Shown here in pieces: positions 3,851 to 26,451 of a stretch of 41,579 bases of DNA. The DNA lies in IMG/VR virus record IMGVR_UViG_3300035670_000498, positions 1 to 41,579 of that record. The stretch is one strand, 5' to 3'. The first letter of the stretch is position 1. Every line of letters begins with the position of its first letter. Source of the DNA: a virus. The position numbers were made by a program, and so were the translations under genes. The notes beneath the pieces are model-generated. The model ran no database searches, was not told the DNA's origin, and saw only the letters and a list, made by a program, of their open reading frames with translations.

Positions 3851-4634
3851 AGAAGTTGATTATAATAGGCACATTGTTATTGGAACCCCACTGGTTGGCT
3901 GGAAATGTGATAGAAAAGAAGATATGGTATGGCTTGAAAATAGAATTGACATTATGAATACCTTCAACAATGCCACATTTTTTGCAGCACTAGAATTAGA
4001 TCATCGTGGACTTGAACCATTTAATCATGTAATAGATGCCCTAAATGAAGTAAATGGAAAATACTGGACATATAGTATTAATGATTATGAAGAGCAAGTA
4101 ACTTCATCAAATAGATGGATAAGAATTGAAATGGGAAGAAATCTTATTCGTGAATTTGCACAAAGACAAAGGGTAATGTCTGGTCATCATTGGGGAGAAC
4201 AAACTCCGCAACATGGAATAGCAAATTATGAATCAGTTCTTTATGTTGATTCTGATACAACGCTATCTAAAGAAATAGTATCTAAGCTACTAGAAATTGA
4301 TAGGCAACTCGTTGGCGTAGATGTTCCTGCATATGGATTACATGGTAAGGTTATAAATAAGAATCCACGAGTAGAAGAACATTGGACAACTGCTGGTATG
4401 CTACTGGTTAATTCACCAGCATTTTATGATCTAGTATGGAGTCATAATGCATATCTTAACCTTAGCGATGATCCAACATTTCAGTCAATGGCAGAAAGGT
4501 TAAAGCGTCGTGAAGGTGTAAATAATCTAGAAGAAACTTATGGAATGACTTGGGTAAGAAAAGATATTCAGTCTCAACATAAAGGACAACTAGTACCAGT
4601 AGAGAATAGAAAAATTCCTAAAAGAACTATTTAG
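3843..4634 (+). CDS. Glycosyltransferase-like protein with DxD motif
   Basis: 263 residues. HIVIGTPLVGW opens a nucleotide-sugar-binding strand, and SVLYVDSDTTLS (D136, D138) is a DxD metal-binding motif of GT-A enzymes. It follows the GDPD-like gene with an eight-base overlap and ends convergently, overlapping the stop of the leftward peptidase by eight bases. Last gene of the glycan cassette; with the other proteins it could modify the phage particle, host surface polymer or DNA. The family within GT-A is not clear. Confidence 0.68.
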   Translation: MFKEVDYNRHIVIGTPLVGWKCDRKEDMVWLENRIDIMNTFNNATFFAALELDHRGLEPFNHVIDALNEVNGKYWTYSINDYEEQVTSSNRWIRIEMGRNLIREFAQRQRVMSGHHWGEQTPQHGIANYESVLYVDSDTTLSKEIVSKLLEIDRQLVGVDVPAYGLHGKVINKNPRVEEHWTTAGMLLVNSPAFYDLVWSHNAYLNLSDDPTFQSMAERLKRREGVNNLEETYGMTWVRKDIQSQHKGQLVPVENRKIPKRTI

Positions 4635-12622: not shown

Positions 12623-12623
12623 G

Positions 12624-12697
12624 TACGCAGCCAGAGGATTGAACTCTGCTCTAAGTAAGATATAAGCTTACTTCTGACCACCAGCCAGCCGCTGCGC
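12624..12697 (-). tRNA. tRNA-Ile (anticodon UAU)
   Basis: Acceptor GCGCAGC pairs with GCTGCGT (one G-U). Anticodon stem GTAAG/CTTAC encloses CTTATAT with anticodon TAT, reading AUA. T arm CAGAG-TTCAATC-CTCTG is perfect. D stem CTGG/TCAG is acceptable. No encoded CCA; discriminator A. Position 8 is G instead of the usual U, so automatic scores may be low. AUA is common in the surrounding genes. Confidence 0.72.
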
Positions 12698-14600: not shown

Positions 14601-14676
14601 TGGCGACCCTGATGGGATTTGAACCCACGACCTTCACCTTGACAGGGTGATGAGCACTCCGCTGCTCTACAGGGCC
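14601..14676 (-). tRNA. tRNA-Asp (anticodon GUC)
   Basis: Acceptor GGCCCTG pairs with CAGGGTC (one G-U). Anticodon stem TCACC/GGTGA encloses CTGTCAA with anticodon GTC. T arm GGG-TTCAAAT-CCC type. Discriminator G and CCA are encoded (14601-14603). Typical class I tRNA of 76 bases. Confidence 0.92.
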
Positions 14677-16908: not shown

Positions 16909-16967
16909 AAATTTCGGGGATTTTATAACGATTTCGTAACAAGGTTATCCACAGGGGCGCGGCCCCG
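16909..16967. repeat. Interspersed intergenic repeat, copy D (reference)
   Basis: Clean copy of the module: AATTTCGGGGATTTTATAACG, TTCGTAACAAGG, a DnaA-box-like TTATCCACA (16945-16953), then GGGGCGCGGCCCC. It lies between divergent promoters. Similar modules occur at 10484, 14519, 15803, 18537, 18796 and 20209. Confidence 0.75.
16945..16953. promoter_or_regulatory. DnaA-box-like TTATCCACA
   Basis: Exact match to TTATNCACA, inside the intergenic repeat. Further boxes at 18866, 18899, 20264, 20337 and 20348. Confidence 0.55.
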
Positions 16968-16992
16968 TTACCAAATTGTTATCAAAATACCC

Positions 16993-17021
16993 TTTACAAT
17001 GTCAGAGGTATGTGATAGGTT
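16993..17021 (+). promoter_or_regulatory. Promoter TTTACA-N17-TAGGTT with TGTCAG element, leaderless
   Basis: TTTACA (16993-16998) and TAGGTT (17016-17021), 17 bases apart, with TGTCAG at 17000-17005. Six bases from the -10 to the ATG at 17028. Confidence 0.75.
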
Positions 17022-17402: not shown

Positions 17403-17870
17403 ATGGGACTTGATTCGTATCTGTACCGCCGTGAATATGTCGGTGGGTGGGAATGGAATGAAGATTCCAAAGAGGTAGCCATGTATAACTCTATTTTAGA
17501 ATACATGGGTGTTGATCGTTGTGTGAGTTCTCCCTCTGCTCACATCGAACTAACTGTTGCCTATTGGCGCAAGGCCAATGCCGTTCACAAGTGGTTCTGT
17601 GATCTTGACGGTGGGCGTGATGAATGTCAGTCTATCTATGTCACAAAGGAAGATTTGATTAGACTGCGTGATCTTGCTAAGTCTGTCATCGAACAGCCTG
17701 CCATGGCTGGCGATGTTCTGCCTACTCAGCAGGGATTTTTCTTTGGCTCCTATGACTATGATGATTGGTACATGGAGGACATGAAGAATACTGTTGAGCA
17801 GATTGACAGGGTTCTTGAGTCTACTAAGCATCGTGAGTTTGTAGACTTCATCTACCGTGCCTCTTGGTAA
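17403..17870 (+). CDS. Conserved actinophage protein of unknown function
   Basis: 155 residues. MGLDSYLYRREYVGGWEWN, YWRKANAVHKWFCDL, LPTQQGFFFGSYDYDDWYMED and a helical EQIDRVL end recur in many actinophage proteins annotated only as hypothetical. Strong ribosome-binding site GGAAAGGTGG. Own promoter at 17342-17370. Unknown function. Confidence 0.75.
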   Translation: MGLDSYLYRREYVGGWEWNEDSKEVAMYNSILEYMGVDRCVSSPSAHIELTVAYWRKANAVHKWFCDLDGGRDECQSIYVTKEDLIRLRDLAKSVIEQPAMAGDVLPTQQGFFFGSYDYDDWYMEDMKNTVEQIDRVLESTKHREFVDFIYRASW

Positions 17871-17882
17871 CAATTTGATAAC

Positions 17883-17919
17883 GGTGGGGGTATGGGTATT
17901 GACATTCTCTACCCCCACC
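17883..17919. promoter_or_regulatory. 10-bp perfect inverted repeat enclosing a -35 box
   Basis: GGTGGGGGTA (17883-17892) pairs perfectly with TACCCCCACC (17910-17919). The loop contains the TTGACA of the next promoter. It could be an operator or a hairpin ending the upstream mRNA; there is no T-run. Confidence 0.6.
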
Positions 17920-17927
17920 ACTACAAT
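17899..17927 (+). promoter_or_regulatory. Promoter TTGACA-N17-TACAAT
   Basis: TTGACA (17899-17904) and TACAAT (17922-17927), 17 bases apart. Drives the 46-residue gene at 17958, and perhaps read-through to the non-coding RNA. Confidence 0.82.
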
Positions 17928-17957
17928 ATACCCATAACAACAACGAAAGGTAATAAC

Positions 17958-18098
17958 ATGGCAACTCTCGCAATCGGTGACTCATTCACTACTCGCAAGT
18001 CAGGGGTAACAGGAACAATCCAAGAAATCATCGAAAAGCCCTTTGGCTTTGTCCTTCGTCTTGATGTAAATGGTACAGAACGCTTTACAACCGTCTAG
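17958..18098 (+). CDS. Small beta-rich protein
   Basis: 46 residues from the ATG at 17958 (MATLAIGDSFTTRKSGVTGT), with GAAAGG upstream. Predicted strands (GTIQEIIEKPFGFVLRLDVNG) suggest a tiny barrel or KOW-like fold. Ends just before the structured RNA and contains its -35. Unknown function. Confidence 0.65.
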   Translation: MATLAIGDSFTTRKSGVTGTIQEIIEKPFGFVLRLDVNGTERFTTV

Positions 18099-18112
18099 CA
18101 TTCTGATACAAT
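18084..18112 (+). promoter_or_regulatory. Promoter for structured RNA, TTTACA-N17-TACAAT
   Basis: TTTACA (18084-18089) lies in the end of the small gene; TACAAT (18107-18112) is 17 bases later and preceded by TGA (extended -10). CTGAT/ATCAG flank the -10. Predicted transcript start near 18119. Confidence 0.72.
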
Positions 18113-18118
18113 CAGACA

Positions 18119-18539
18119 ATAAATAAATAGAGAGTTTCTAGGTCAAGTCATCGGTAATGCGTGATTGGGCTTGATGGGATGCCTGATCCAACACGAACCT
18201 AATGCAGACTGGAAAACATAATGACGGACTAAGGCTTGCCAGCGTGTCCGTAAACTCTGACGTAAATAGCATTGTGAGTTATGTTTTCCTTTAGGATATG
18301 CGACCGTGGGGGTACTAAATGATATTAGATGATCACATTGAGGTACCTTAAAATATACCCACATCGTCTCGCTTCCTAACTTGCAGTCTAGTGTGTCATG
18401 CGTTGTAGAAGTATTGGCAGAAGTCATTGTCATCGCTGCAAGTCCAAATGTGAGGCCAAGCCTAGATAACCTCACACCACCCTATATTTCACCACATGTG
18501 AAACATCCTAGACACGATGTAAAACTGTCTATTTTTTTT
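18119..18539 (+). ncRNA. Structured non-coding RNA of about 420 nt
   Basis: No gene-like reading frame is seen. Perfect helices: TCAAG/CTTGA (18143-18147, 18170-18174); an 11-bp stem 18211-18221 with 18279-18289 that contains ACGGAC/GTCCGT (18224-18229, 18246-18251); GTGGG/CCCAC and GGTAC/GTACC (18306-18315 with 18343-18362); ACTTGCAG/CTGCAAGT (18379-18386, 18436-18443); TGTGAGG/CCTCACA (18449-18455, 18470-18476); TTTCAC/GTGAAA (18487-18492, 18498-18503). TCTAGG (18137-18142) could close with CCTAGA (18507-18512). It has its own promoter and an intrinsic terminator. Large ornate RNAs of this type (for example GOLLD or ROOL) occur in phages, but identity with one is not established. Confidence 0.75.
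18509..18539 (+). terminator. Intrinsic terminator of structured RNA
   Basis: TAGACA (18509-18514) pairs with TGTCTA (18526-18531), then eight T's (18532-18539). Confidence 0.88.
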
Positions 18540-18600
18540 GGGAATTCTGGAGAAATTTCTTAATGATCGTAAGATGAGAGCTTTGGGGGGCGCGGCCCCT
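18537..18600. repeat. Interspersed intergenic repeat, copy E
   Basis: GGGAATTCTGGAGAAATTTC, ATCGTAAGATGAGAGC, then GGGGGGCGCGGCCCC. Diverged left half, intact GC palindrome. Confidence 0.55.
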
Positions 18601-18601
18601 C

Positions 18602-18736
18602 CTAGCCCCAATAGGCTAGTTGGGCTTCTGCCCATGCCTCACCAGAAGGGTCATCGCACGAACCCTCGTAGGTGGCCTCATGATCTATGAATGAATAGAA
18701 ATCGTCCTCATCAATGACCATTGTGAACTCGTCCAT
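18602..18736 (-). CDS. Small acidic protein of unknown function
   Basis: 44 residues from ATG 18736 (MDEFTMVIDEDDFYSFIDHE), with GAAGGGA upstream; the longer in-frame start is inside the promoter spacer. Acidic. Promoter at 18765-18794. Confidence 0.65.
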   Translation of the reverse strand: MDEFTMVIDEDDFYSFIDHEATYEGSCDDPSGEAWAEAQLAYWG

Positions 18737-18795: not shown

Positions 18796-18874
18796 TTTAT
18801 TTTTCAGGAATTTTGGGGAAAACATCGTAACTTCGTAACACAAGAGCTAGGCATCGCGCCCCGCCTGTGGATAA
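18796..18874. repeat. Interspersed intergenic repeat, copy F, with DnaA box
   Basis: GGAATTTTGGGGAAAACATCG, CTTCGTAACACAAGAG, then CGCGCCCCGCCTGTGGATAA. The DnaA-box-like TGTGGATAA is at 18866-18874; a second lies at 18899-18907. Confidence 0.6.
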
Positions 18875-18906
18875 CTTGTGCATATCTTTAGAAGCTTTTG
18901 TGGATA

Positions 18907-19005
18907 ACTCTGTTACATATTCGTTATAAAACATGTCCGATTTGTATGCATTTCTAAACCAAAAATGTCAGACCCCCATGATAGCCTTGGGGTAACTTAG
19001 AAAGG
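18907..19005 (+). repeat. Paralogous ~100-bp promoter-upstream module, copy 1
   Basis: AACTCTGTTACAT, CGTTATAAAACATGTCCGATTTG, then AAAAATGTCAGACCCCC leading to TAGCCT. Similar blocks stand at about 20355-20451 and 20776-20877, so the whole upstream region was duplicated, not only the promoter. Confidence 0.55.
18966..18987 (+). promoter_or_regulatory. TGTCAG-N10-TAGCCT promoter element
   Basis: TGTCAG (18966-18971) and TAGCCT (18982-18987), with TGA just before the -10. No canonical -35. Drives the gene at 19012. Confidence 0.62.
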
Positions 19006-20208: not shown

Positions 20209-20272
20209 ATTTCGGGGATAGTATAAGGTCTTCGTAACAAAGCTCAAACCTGGGGGCGCGGCCTGTGGATAA
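20209..20272. repeat. Interspersed intergenic repeat, copy G, with DnaA box
   Basis: GATTTCGGGGATAGTATAAG, CTTCGTAACAAAGC, then GGGGGCGCGGCCTGTGGATAA. Well-matched copy of the 16909 module. Confidence 0.68.
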
Positions 20273-20354
20273 CCTGTGTATTATTATTCACTTTTTATTC
20301 ATCTAAAATACGGCGTGTCGATTTGACATGTGGATATGTGGATAACTTGTGAAT

Positions 20355-20451
20355 AACTCCGTTACCTAACTGTTACAAAACCTGTCCGATTTGCCCCGAT
20401 ATTTAGGGCAAAAATGTCAGACCCCTATGCTAGGCTGTAGCCATAGAAAGA
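20355..20451 (+). repeat. Paralogous ~100-bp promoter-upstream module, copy 2
   Basis: AACTCCGTTACCTAACTGTT, CCTGTCCGATTTG, AAAAATGTCAGACCCCT, TAGGCT. Parallel to 18907-19005. Confidence 0.55.
20415..20436 (+). promoter_or_regulatory. TGTCAG-N10-TAGGCT promoter element
   Basis: TGTCAG (20415-20420), ten bases, TAGGCT (20431-20436), TGC before the -10. Drives 20472-20627 and the paralogue at 20641. Confidence 0.62.
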
Positions 20452-24297: not shown

Positions 24298-24315
24298 AAT
24301 TTTCCAATCTGTAAG

Positions 24316-24587
24316 TGGACCTGGGGAGAATCGCACTCCCGTTCTTTAATGTATCTCTATCTCAGATATACAACCATGTTGTGTTTATTGCGTTTTAGCA
24401 ATTTTGGTTTCCGACCTGCAATTGCTGAATTGTTTTTCAACACTAGACTTCTGTTCCCACCTGTCTAGAAGGCGGCTCTGCTGTGACTTGTTTATGCAGC
24501 GAGAGCGTAGGCGTTTATATTTTTGCCGTTTATATTCAGTTGGTTGCCAAGATAGCCTTTCATTAAAGTCGAATCTAATTCAGGCCC
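24316..24587 (-). ncRNA. ssrA: tmRNA (transfer-messenger RNA)
   Basis: 5' GGGCCTG pairs with 3' CAGGTCC over seven pairs, and pair 3-70 is G-U, the alanine identity element. GGGCCTGAATTAGATTCGAC matches the conserved tmRNA 5' end. T stem GGGAG/CTCCC. A tag frame (24492-24527) ends NAYALAA then TAA; a GGC resume codon gives GKNINAYALAA. CTATCT/AGATAG can form helix 2, and AGCAATT/AATTGCT and CTAGAC/GTCTAG further helices. 272 bases, shorter than the 363 of E. coli. Discriminator A, no encoded CCA. T-loop position 55 reads G, not the usual T. Confidence 0.92.
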
Positions 24588-25796: not shown

Positions 25797-25870
25797 TGGA
25801 GCGGCATATCGGATTCGAACCGATGACAAAACTTTGGAAGAGTCTTATGTTACCCCTACACCAATGCCGC
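25797..25870 (-). tRNA. tRNA-Gly (anticodon UCC)
   Basis: Acceptor GCGGCAT/ATGCCGC. Anticodon stem AGACT/AGTTT around CTTCCAA, anticodon TCC. T arm TCGG-TTCGAAT-CCGA. Discriminator T with encoded CCA (25797-25799), typical for Gly. Confidence 0.92.
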
Positions 25871-25874
25871 ATGT

Positions 25875-26201
25875 TTACTGCATTCTTTTCCATGTTCTTT
25901 CTGCATGGCAATTAGAACATACTAGTTCACACTTTTCTATTTCATTTTTTACTTGTTGTAGTGTTCCCCTTGACGCAAACCATGAAACTGTTTTATCTTT
26001 ACTATGTAAGTGATCGAATTCCATTACATAATATGGATAAAAAATTCCACAGTCTGTACAAGGATATGATTCTTTTATTTTTTTTACATACTCTCTTACT
26101 TTTTCTCTATACGTTTTATCTCTTTGTCTATAAGAATCTTTATTTTTTTTATAATGTTCTCTCTGCGCTTGTTTTTGTTTTTCTGGATCTTTATATGGCA
26201 T
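25875..26201 (-). CDS. HNH endonuclease, leaderless
   Basis: 108 residues from ATG 26201 (MPYKDPEKQKQAQREHYKK, a typical start for this family). CTDCGIFYPYYVMEFDHLHS and CELVCSNCHAERTW carry the zinc Cys and the catalytic DH. TACAAT ends six bases before the ATG. Sits between tRNA-Thr and tRNA-Gly. Confidence 0.85.
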   Translation of the reverse strand: MPYKDPEKQKQAQREHYKKNKDSYRQRDKTYREKVREYVKKIKESYPCTDCGIFYPYYVMEFDHLHSKDKTVSWFASRGTLQQVKNEIEKCELVCSNCHAERTWKRMQ

Positions 26202-26207
26202 GGTTTT

Positions 26208-26216
26208 ATTGTACCA
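26208..26216 (-). promoter_or_regulatory. Extended -10 TGG-TACAAT, leaderless
   Basis: TGGTACAAT on the minus strand (26208-26216), then six bases to the ATG at 26201. Confidence 0.65.
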
Positions 26217-26255
26217 TATAAGAATTGAACCATTATGCAACAGTCGCATGTTACG

Positions 26256-26327
26256 AGCCTCAAAACAGATTTGAACTGTTGACCGCTCGCTTACAAGGCG
26301 AGTGCTCTACCACTGAGCTATTGAGGC
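26256..26327 (-). tRNA. tRNA-Thr (anticodon UGU)
   Basis: Acceptor GCCTCAA/TTGAGGC. Anticodon stem CTCGC/GCGAG around CTTGTAA, anticodon TGT. D loop and T loop (TTCAAAT) regular. Discriminator T; no CCA encoded (TCGT follows). Confidence 0.92.
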
Positions 26328-26331
26328 AGGT

Positions 26332-26376
26332 GGGGAGGCAGCGGGGTGGATGGGTGGGTGGAGTCGCTGCCTCCCC
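26332..26376. other. Strong hairpin with G-run loop between tRNAs
   Basis: GGGGAGGCAGC (26332-26342) pairs perfectly with GCTGCCTCCCC (26366-26376). The loop has G-runs that, with the stem's GGGG, meet the G-quadruplex rule on the plus strand. It may protect or separate the tRNA precursors. Confidence 0.55.
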
Positions 26377-26451
26377 TGGCTGACCTGAGAAGATTCGAAC
26401 TTCTAACCTACGAGTTAACAGCTCGCTGCTCTGCCGTTGAGCTACAGGTCA
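26377..26451 (-). tRNA. tRNA-Asn (anticodon GUU)
   Basis: Acceptor TGACCTG/CAGGTCA. Anticodon stem GCGAG/CTCGT around CTGTTAA, anticodon GTT. T arm TAGAAG-TTCGAAT-CTTCT type. Discriminator G and CCA encoded (26377-26379). Confidence 0.92.

Follow-up and report, generated by a model that had tools for sequence, protein, structure and literature searches.

The locus lies in a virus record of 41,579 bases, which is referred to here as the window. On the plus strand, a small gene encoding 46 amino acids (17958–18098) was recognized from its translation and its relatives; its protein has no family in Pfam or PHROGs. This gene lies outside the RNA described below and served as a syntenic marker for collecting relatives. 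A first-pass annotation, made from the letters of the sequence, had placed a structured RNA with its own promoter and terminator in the gene-free region that follows, and no credible gene was indeed found between the end of the small gene at 18098 and position 18602. The promoter-like sequence that it named, TTTACA-N17-TACAAT, is present at 18084–18112 (+), where it overlaps the end of the upstream gene, carries TG before the −10 element, and matches the consensus at 10 of 12 positions; promoter-like sites in the region are no more frequent than in shuffled sequences. At the other end, directly 3′ of a pseudoknot, a run of eight T residues (18532–18539, +) can be read directly and is the likely transcript 3′ end. 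Elsewhere, the window contains five minus-strand tRNA genes (Ile-TAT, Asp, Gly, Thr, and Asn; 12623–12697, 14601–14676, and 25797–26451) and a tmRNA at 24313–24587 (−), which scores 55 bits against an Rfam gathering threshold of 47 bits and was not reported by ARAGORN. Additionally, repeated intergenic units at 16920–17000, 18820–18990, and 20210–20440, with GGGGCGCGGCCCC-like palindromes and GTTATCCACAGG-like and TGTCAGACCCCCAT boxes, are probably terminators and promoters common to the relatives.

Three perfect helices had been singled out in the region, and each proved exact: an 11-bp stem (18211–18221 with 18279–18289), an 8-bp stem (18379–18386 with 18436–18443), and a 7-bp stem (18449–18455 with 18470–18476). 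The accompanying claim that helices exceed chance was borne out as well. The segment from 18119 to 18539 holds five perfect helices that are 7 bp or longer, against a mean of 1.9 in dinucleotide shuffles, 3% of which reach five, and an 11-bp helix is reached by 0.7% of the shuffles. The fold of the whole 427-nt piece is only modestly better than that of shuffles (z −1.29). An overall folding energy this unremarkable made homologues necessary as proof; as judged from the alignments, it is compensatory changes in homologues that prove the structure, energy by itself being insufficient.

Nucleotide searches contributed little to the collection of such homologues: blast with the RNA piece as query returned nothing useful, and isolate phages searched by blastn with the body gave no real match, with tRNA matches appearing only when tRNA was included in the query. 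The protein encoded at 17403–17867, used as query, led to three relatives (L002, L003, and L005), which match the locus best from the promoter through the 5′ start; 80 viral loci were reached with an alignment of the 46-aa protein. The collections were scanned by exact patterns, family sizes being lower bounds, and several relatives are redundant contigs. Directly 3′ of the small gene, the relatives carry the promoter and the start AATAAATAAATAG, a varying mix of modules, and then the pseudoknot and/or tRNA genes. Promoter and 5′ start are retained, in many cases together with the 3′ end; the modules are exchanged, and tRNA genes usually come next. In the window, the constant 5′ start (AATAAATAAATAG...) occupies 18119–18137 (+), and it stands directly after the promoter position in L002, L003, L005, L010, L038, L058, L070, and L095. 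Module content varies, and the shortest relative is about 110 nt long (L005) compared with about 410 nt in the window. The RNA precedes tRNA genes or tRNA-like elements in eight relatives (L002, L003, L010, L038, L058, L070, L095, and L247). A tRNA-Asp gene follows the RNA in relatives and is separate from it in the window. Furthermore, a tRNA-Trp-like element with the anticodon loop CCTCCAAAA, a short D arm, and GCCTTGGGTACTGGGTACAGACGAGCC... follows the RNA in L002, L008, L038, L070, and L095; the Rfam tRNA model did not report it in the first four of these. A protein-coding reading of the region was rejected: a 110-aa antisense frame, which has no Pfam match, is interrupted by stops and gaps in L038, and no frame is kept among the homologues.

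The middle of the RNA is composed of modules, of which module C (18291–18379, +) is the key conserved core. Its internal loop, AUAUGCGACC / ..CGNCUCGCUU, lies between an outer and an inner helix. The module is found in 12 distinct viral sequences, some from AT-rich lake phages and others, such as L092, L248, and L249, from GC-rich phages. Folded as a single module, C reaches a z of −2.9. The outer and GCGA/UCGC helices are 98% paired, compared with 83% in shuffles (0 of 500), and hold 15 both-sided cells against 4.0 in shuffles, none of which reaches 15; when the partner is slid by one to three columns, pairing falls to at most 58%. Further pair types are no more numerous than in shuffles (170 of 500). 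One relative (L008) carries GCAA/UUGC in place of GCGA/UCGC. The inner helix covaries in 10 sequences placed by hand, a placement that favors the helix, and the 46–70 bits that copies score against R1, our model of the module, reflect matches by construction. Judged by the main covariation controls, which it passed, module C is the best supported module. A search of 396 Actinomycetota genomes with R1 yielded one weak match in open frames (L251), which was taken as chance, and pattern matches within genes (L088, L090, L093, and L094) also looked like chance.

Modules E, F, and D have support from fewer relatives than module C, and modules B, E, and F have one distinct relative each. Module E (18211–18289, +) is a three-way junction closed by the 11-bp helix (z −2.9). 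Its homologue in L008 (3222–3302) has a similar fold (z −3.8), and comparison of the two copies reveals five both-sided compensatory pairs and no broken pair in three compared stems. Module F (18306–18362, +) is a hairpin domain with a copy in L058; it is inserted in module C in the window and stands before module C in L058, where the helices are kept with one compensatory pair (GGUAC/GUACC to GAUAC/GUAUC). Module D (18379–18476, +) combines the 8-bp helix ACTTGCAG/CTGCAAGT with the hairpin TGTGAGG/CCTCACA and the conserved loop AAGCCTAGATA. Its sequence is strongly conserved in four relatives (L038, L058, L070, and L247), among which the hairpin stem is swapped by compensatory changes, reading ACTTGTAG/CTACAAGT in L247. 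Two other candidates for module D (L244 and L245) looked like chance pattern matches. Module B (CTAGGT ... ACCTA; 18138–18202, +) is common to L038 and L096 only, and its structure is unproven because the fold is no better than shuffles. Compensatory changes in viral homologues, the check that the first-pass annotation had set for its RNA, were found in modules C, D, E, and F.

At the 3′ end, the earlier reading stands only in part. TAGACA (18509–18514) and TGTCTA (18526–18531) are exact complements followed by the T run, and they had been taken as a terminator. However, they do not form a plain hairpin, because the GATGT within its loop (18516–18520) pairs with ACATC (18503–18507). The element is instead an H-type pseudoknot, ACATC-CT-AGACA-C-GATGT-AAAAC-TGTCT-A (18503–18531, +), with P1 at 18503–18507/18516–18520 and stem 2 at 18509–18514/18526–18531. 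Its family has a P1 of 4–5 bp, a loop 1 of CU, a stem 2 of 5–6 bp, a loop 2 of one base, and a loop 3 of AAAAC; the window copy fits the family definition, with P1 closing CT-S2-N followed by AAAAC and S2′, and the family stems covary. On this comparison, the first reading had missed that the RNA is modular and that its "terminator" is a copy of a widespread phage pseudoknot, an element that matters more than the RNA body.

A structural search of the fetched loci found 285 distinct copies of the pseudoknot against one in a reversed control, a count that includes loci L098–L236, themselves fetched by the pseudoknot pattern. Among 80 copies unselected for stem 2, the stems are 90% paired compared with 77% in shuffles (0 of 500), both-sided cells number 103 against 24 in shuffles (0 of 500), and shifting the partners by one to three columns leaves at most 36% pairing. 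Across 157 anchored copies, pairing stands at 77% for the first three free pairs of P1 (11% in shuffles) and at 98% for the three free pairs of stem 2 (82% in shuffles). The knot letters CCU, CA, and AAAACUG are conserved; these also served as search anchors. By these controls, the pseudoknot is a member of a large phage family, which had no match in Rfam and no description in the literature searched, and which someone may still have seen.

Exact-pattern scanning located at least 120 stretches with the pseudoknot in viral contigs; bacterial and archaeal genomes totaling 257 billion bases yielded 20. Phages with copies infect actinobacteria, cyanobacteria, alphaproteobacteria, and gut bacteria. 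Isolates with the pseudoknot include Mycobacterium phage Labelle, Paracoccus phage ParMal1, cyanophages S-RIM4 and S-EIVl, Nostoc phage NMeng1, and gut phages, and in isolate phages it lies directly 3′ of annotated stop codons. Phage records hold up to five copies, and carrier bacterial genomes hold one or two consensus copies. As a rule, P1 starts 4–8 nt past the upstream stop codon, with no copy closer than 4 nt, and only 13 of the 285 copies lie inside long open frames. A tRNA lies within 100 nt downstream of 46 copies, in 44 of them at 3–14 nt past stem 2 (mode 4); many of these tRNA-adjacent copies come from a single tRNA-Asp locus in related contigs. The pseudoknot also terminates non-coding RNAs, as in the window, L008, L010, and L095, and since it ends these as well as messages, translation is not required.

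Several further settings of the pseudoknot were observed. In a Poribacteria genome (L236, around 930), it forms one of the spacers of a CRISPR array with about 120 repeats, which points to a phage sequence met by that host; a second candidate spacer (L217) was rejected on closer reading, so that only the L236 copy is one. Similar stretches without an obvious gene end (e.g., GCGCATTGCGACGAAGGTTGCCGG; CCCATTGYTCRGCCTGTGG) precede the pseudoknot in several bacterial contigs (L219, L221, L224, L225, L226, L230, and L233). In the contigs that were scanned, no Rfam family matched these stretches, which are possibly other capped RNAs. Across many of the loci L017–L087 (e.g., L019 around 4260–4330), a recurring TTGACA..TAGATATTTAGTAGGGGGCTACTAATAA unit stands directly before the pseudoknot; the arrangement resembles a promoter that leads into a short hairpin and then the knot, and it may represent a very short phage RNA.

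The explanation that we favor, with a probability of roughly 60%, is that the locus gives rise to a stable non-coding RNA with interchangeable modules and a 3′ pseudoknot, in which the knot serves as a 3′-end cap and the body acts through module C. The RNA would measure about 410 nt, from approximately 18119 to the T run at 18532–18539. Sequence comparison shows a layout of constant promoter and 5′ start, interchangeable folded modules in the middle, and a 3′-terminal H-type pseudoknot. The 3′ end would arise by termination at the T run in the window or by RNase P removal of the tRNA in relatives; RNase P cuts at the tRNA, and the upstream RNA would then end about 4 nt past the knot. Because all pseudoknot sites would form or could become RNA 3′ ends, we propose a cap against 3′-to-5′ exonucleases. 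The knot would bar the entry of enzymes such as PNPase or RNase R, and the stop-codon spacing would hold it just outside the terminating ribosome. Less firmly, the body might work as a stable RNA that binds a protein or ligand via module C and is co-expressed with phage tRNAs.

Some observations count against this explanation. Neither a tRNA nor a T run comes next in 183 of the 285 copies, whose 3′ end would need another cut. The conservation of CCU, CA, and AAAACUG goes beyond what a plain roadblock could need, and the folding energy of the whole RNA is ordinary. A broader version, which we hold tentatively and at slightly less than even odds, is that phages across several bacterial phyla use the pseudoknot, about 28 nt long, as a general 3′-end cap at stop codons, tRNA junctions, and the ends of non-coding RNAs, and that the body belongs to a novel, modular class of phage non-coding RNAs whose defining part is module C. 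If the cap is real, phages of very different hosts would share one RNA device guarding the 3′ ends of messages, for which we know of no bacterial counterpart in such form. Such a device might explain phage transcripts outliving host decay and would provide a portable stabilizing tag. The modular RNA body, for its part, would define a new class of phage RNA, with module C as its clear conserved core.

Other readings of the same features were weighed. The T run immediately next to the window copy, together with the presence of such a run after 64 of the 285 copies (22%, against 5% of random places, a roughly fourfold enrichment), would suit a mere transcription terminator in which stem 2 and the T run release RNA polymerase. 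However, the run is absent within 14 nt in 78% of copies, and dozens of copies are followed at 3–14 nt by a tRNA gene in the same orientation, with which they are probably co-transcribed; we consider this reading unlikely. We judge it just as unlikely that the body is only a leader aiding the processing of downstream phage tRNAs, without a function of its own. Its position ahead of tRNA genes or tRNA-like elements in the eight relatives listed above would agree with such a role, but the window RNA has its own T run, and tRNA-Asp lies elsewhere on the other strand (14601–14676). Less probable again is a DNA-level element, such as a recombination hot spot or replication signal with hairpins in single-stranded DNA. 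It would explain the module swapping among relatives and the change of place of module F, and in L248 module C lies between apparently convergent genes. Nevertheless, the orientation relative to the promoter and the upstream gene is constant, and the tRNA junctions, along with the pseudoknot marking message ends elsewhere, fit RNA better.

It is very improbable that the target of the pseudoknot is the ribosome at the stop codon, with readthrough or −1 frameshifting as the outcome, in the manner of retroviral and luteoviral pseudoknots. Those recoding pseudoknots lie 5–9 nt downstream, and the stop-to-knot spacing of 4–8 nt, the H-type geometry, and the short A-rich loop 3 of the phage element recall them. 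However, the preceding stops favor TAA (102 of 133) and avoid the leaky TGA (7 of 133, against 314 of 1230 in the background), slippery heptamers precede 2 of 133 copies, the next in-frame stop follows at a median of 7 codons, and the pseudoknot also ends RNAs with no preceding gene. With no slippery site or leaky stop combined with a long open frame, this reading was rejected.

Rfam searches bear on the remaining alternative. At the gathering score, no match to GOLLD, ROOL, HOLDH, OLE, or raiA was found over the window or in 14 relatives, and none of these families matched at E values up to 10 over 17870–18620. What was reported in the window and relatives comprised only tRNAs, a tmRNA, one group I intron elsewhere, and sub-threshold chance matches. 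A diverged GOLLD, ROOL, or HOLDH member would be compatible with the size class, the elaborate helices, the phage origin, and the tRNAs that neighbor the RNA in relatives, but given these searches and relatives of down to about 110 nt with differing module content, that is the least probable reading of all. Of the initial proposal of a relative of these families or a new class, a structured non-coding RNA with compensatory homologues, a promoter-like site and a 3′ end of its own, and no Rfam family is retained, and the kinship is not supported.

The locus can nonetheless be compared with known systems. GOLLD and ROOL are found close to phage tRNA islands (PMC12286853). Like them, the present RNA is phage-borne, elaborately folded, and non-coding, with tRNA genes near it in relatives such as L002, L003, L010, L070, and L247, though not in the window; it differs in lacking a family match, in its length (about 410 nt, and about 110 nt in L005), and in its swapping of modules. 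A homo-oligomeric RNA cage is a further trait of GOLLD and ROOL. In Enterobacteriales, STAXI elements (RF01728) form tandem repeats whose loops are UUCG (PMC2864571). They resemble the phage element in being small pseudoknots that recur within a genome close to mobile-element genes, whereas the phage pseudoknots are mostly single and follow stop codons: there is one copy in the window, and relatives mostly have scattered copies, each at its own gene end, compared with two to three in tandem for STAXI. With neither an RF01728 match nor a tandem array, identity with STAXI was rejected. The luteovirus BWYV-type pseudoknot has a 5-bp stem 1, a 2-nt loop 1, a 1-nt loop 2, and an A-rich loop 3, a geometry that the phage element appears to share; the latter differs in its stem 2 of 5–6 bp, the absence of a slippery site, the strong TAA stops, and the short downstream frame. 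Finally, ENE/MALAT1-type 3′-end triple helices and xrRNAs are eukaryotic or eukaryotic-virus elements of unrelated sequence and fold, yet the action proposed here would be of the same kind, namely a compact fold at the end of an RNA that bars an exonuclease.
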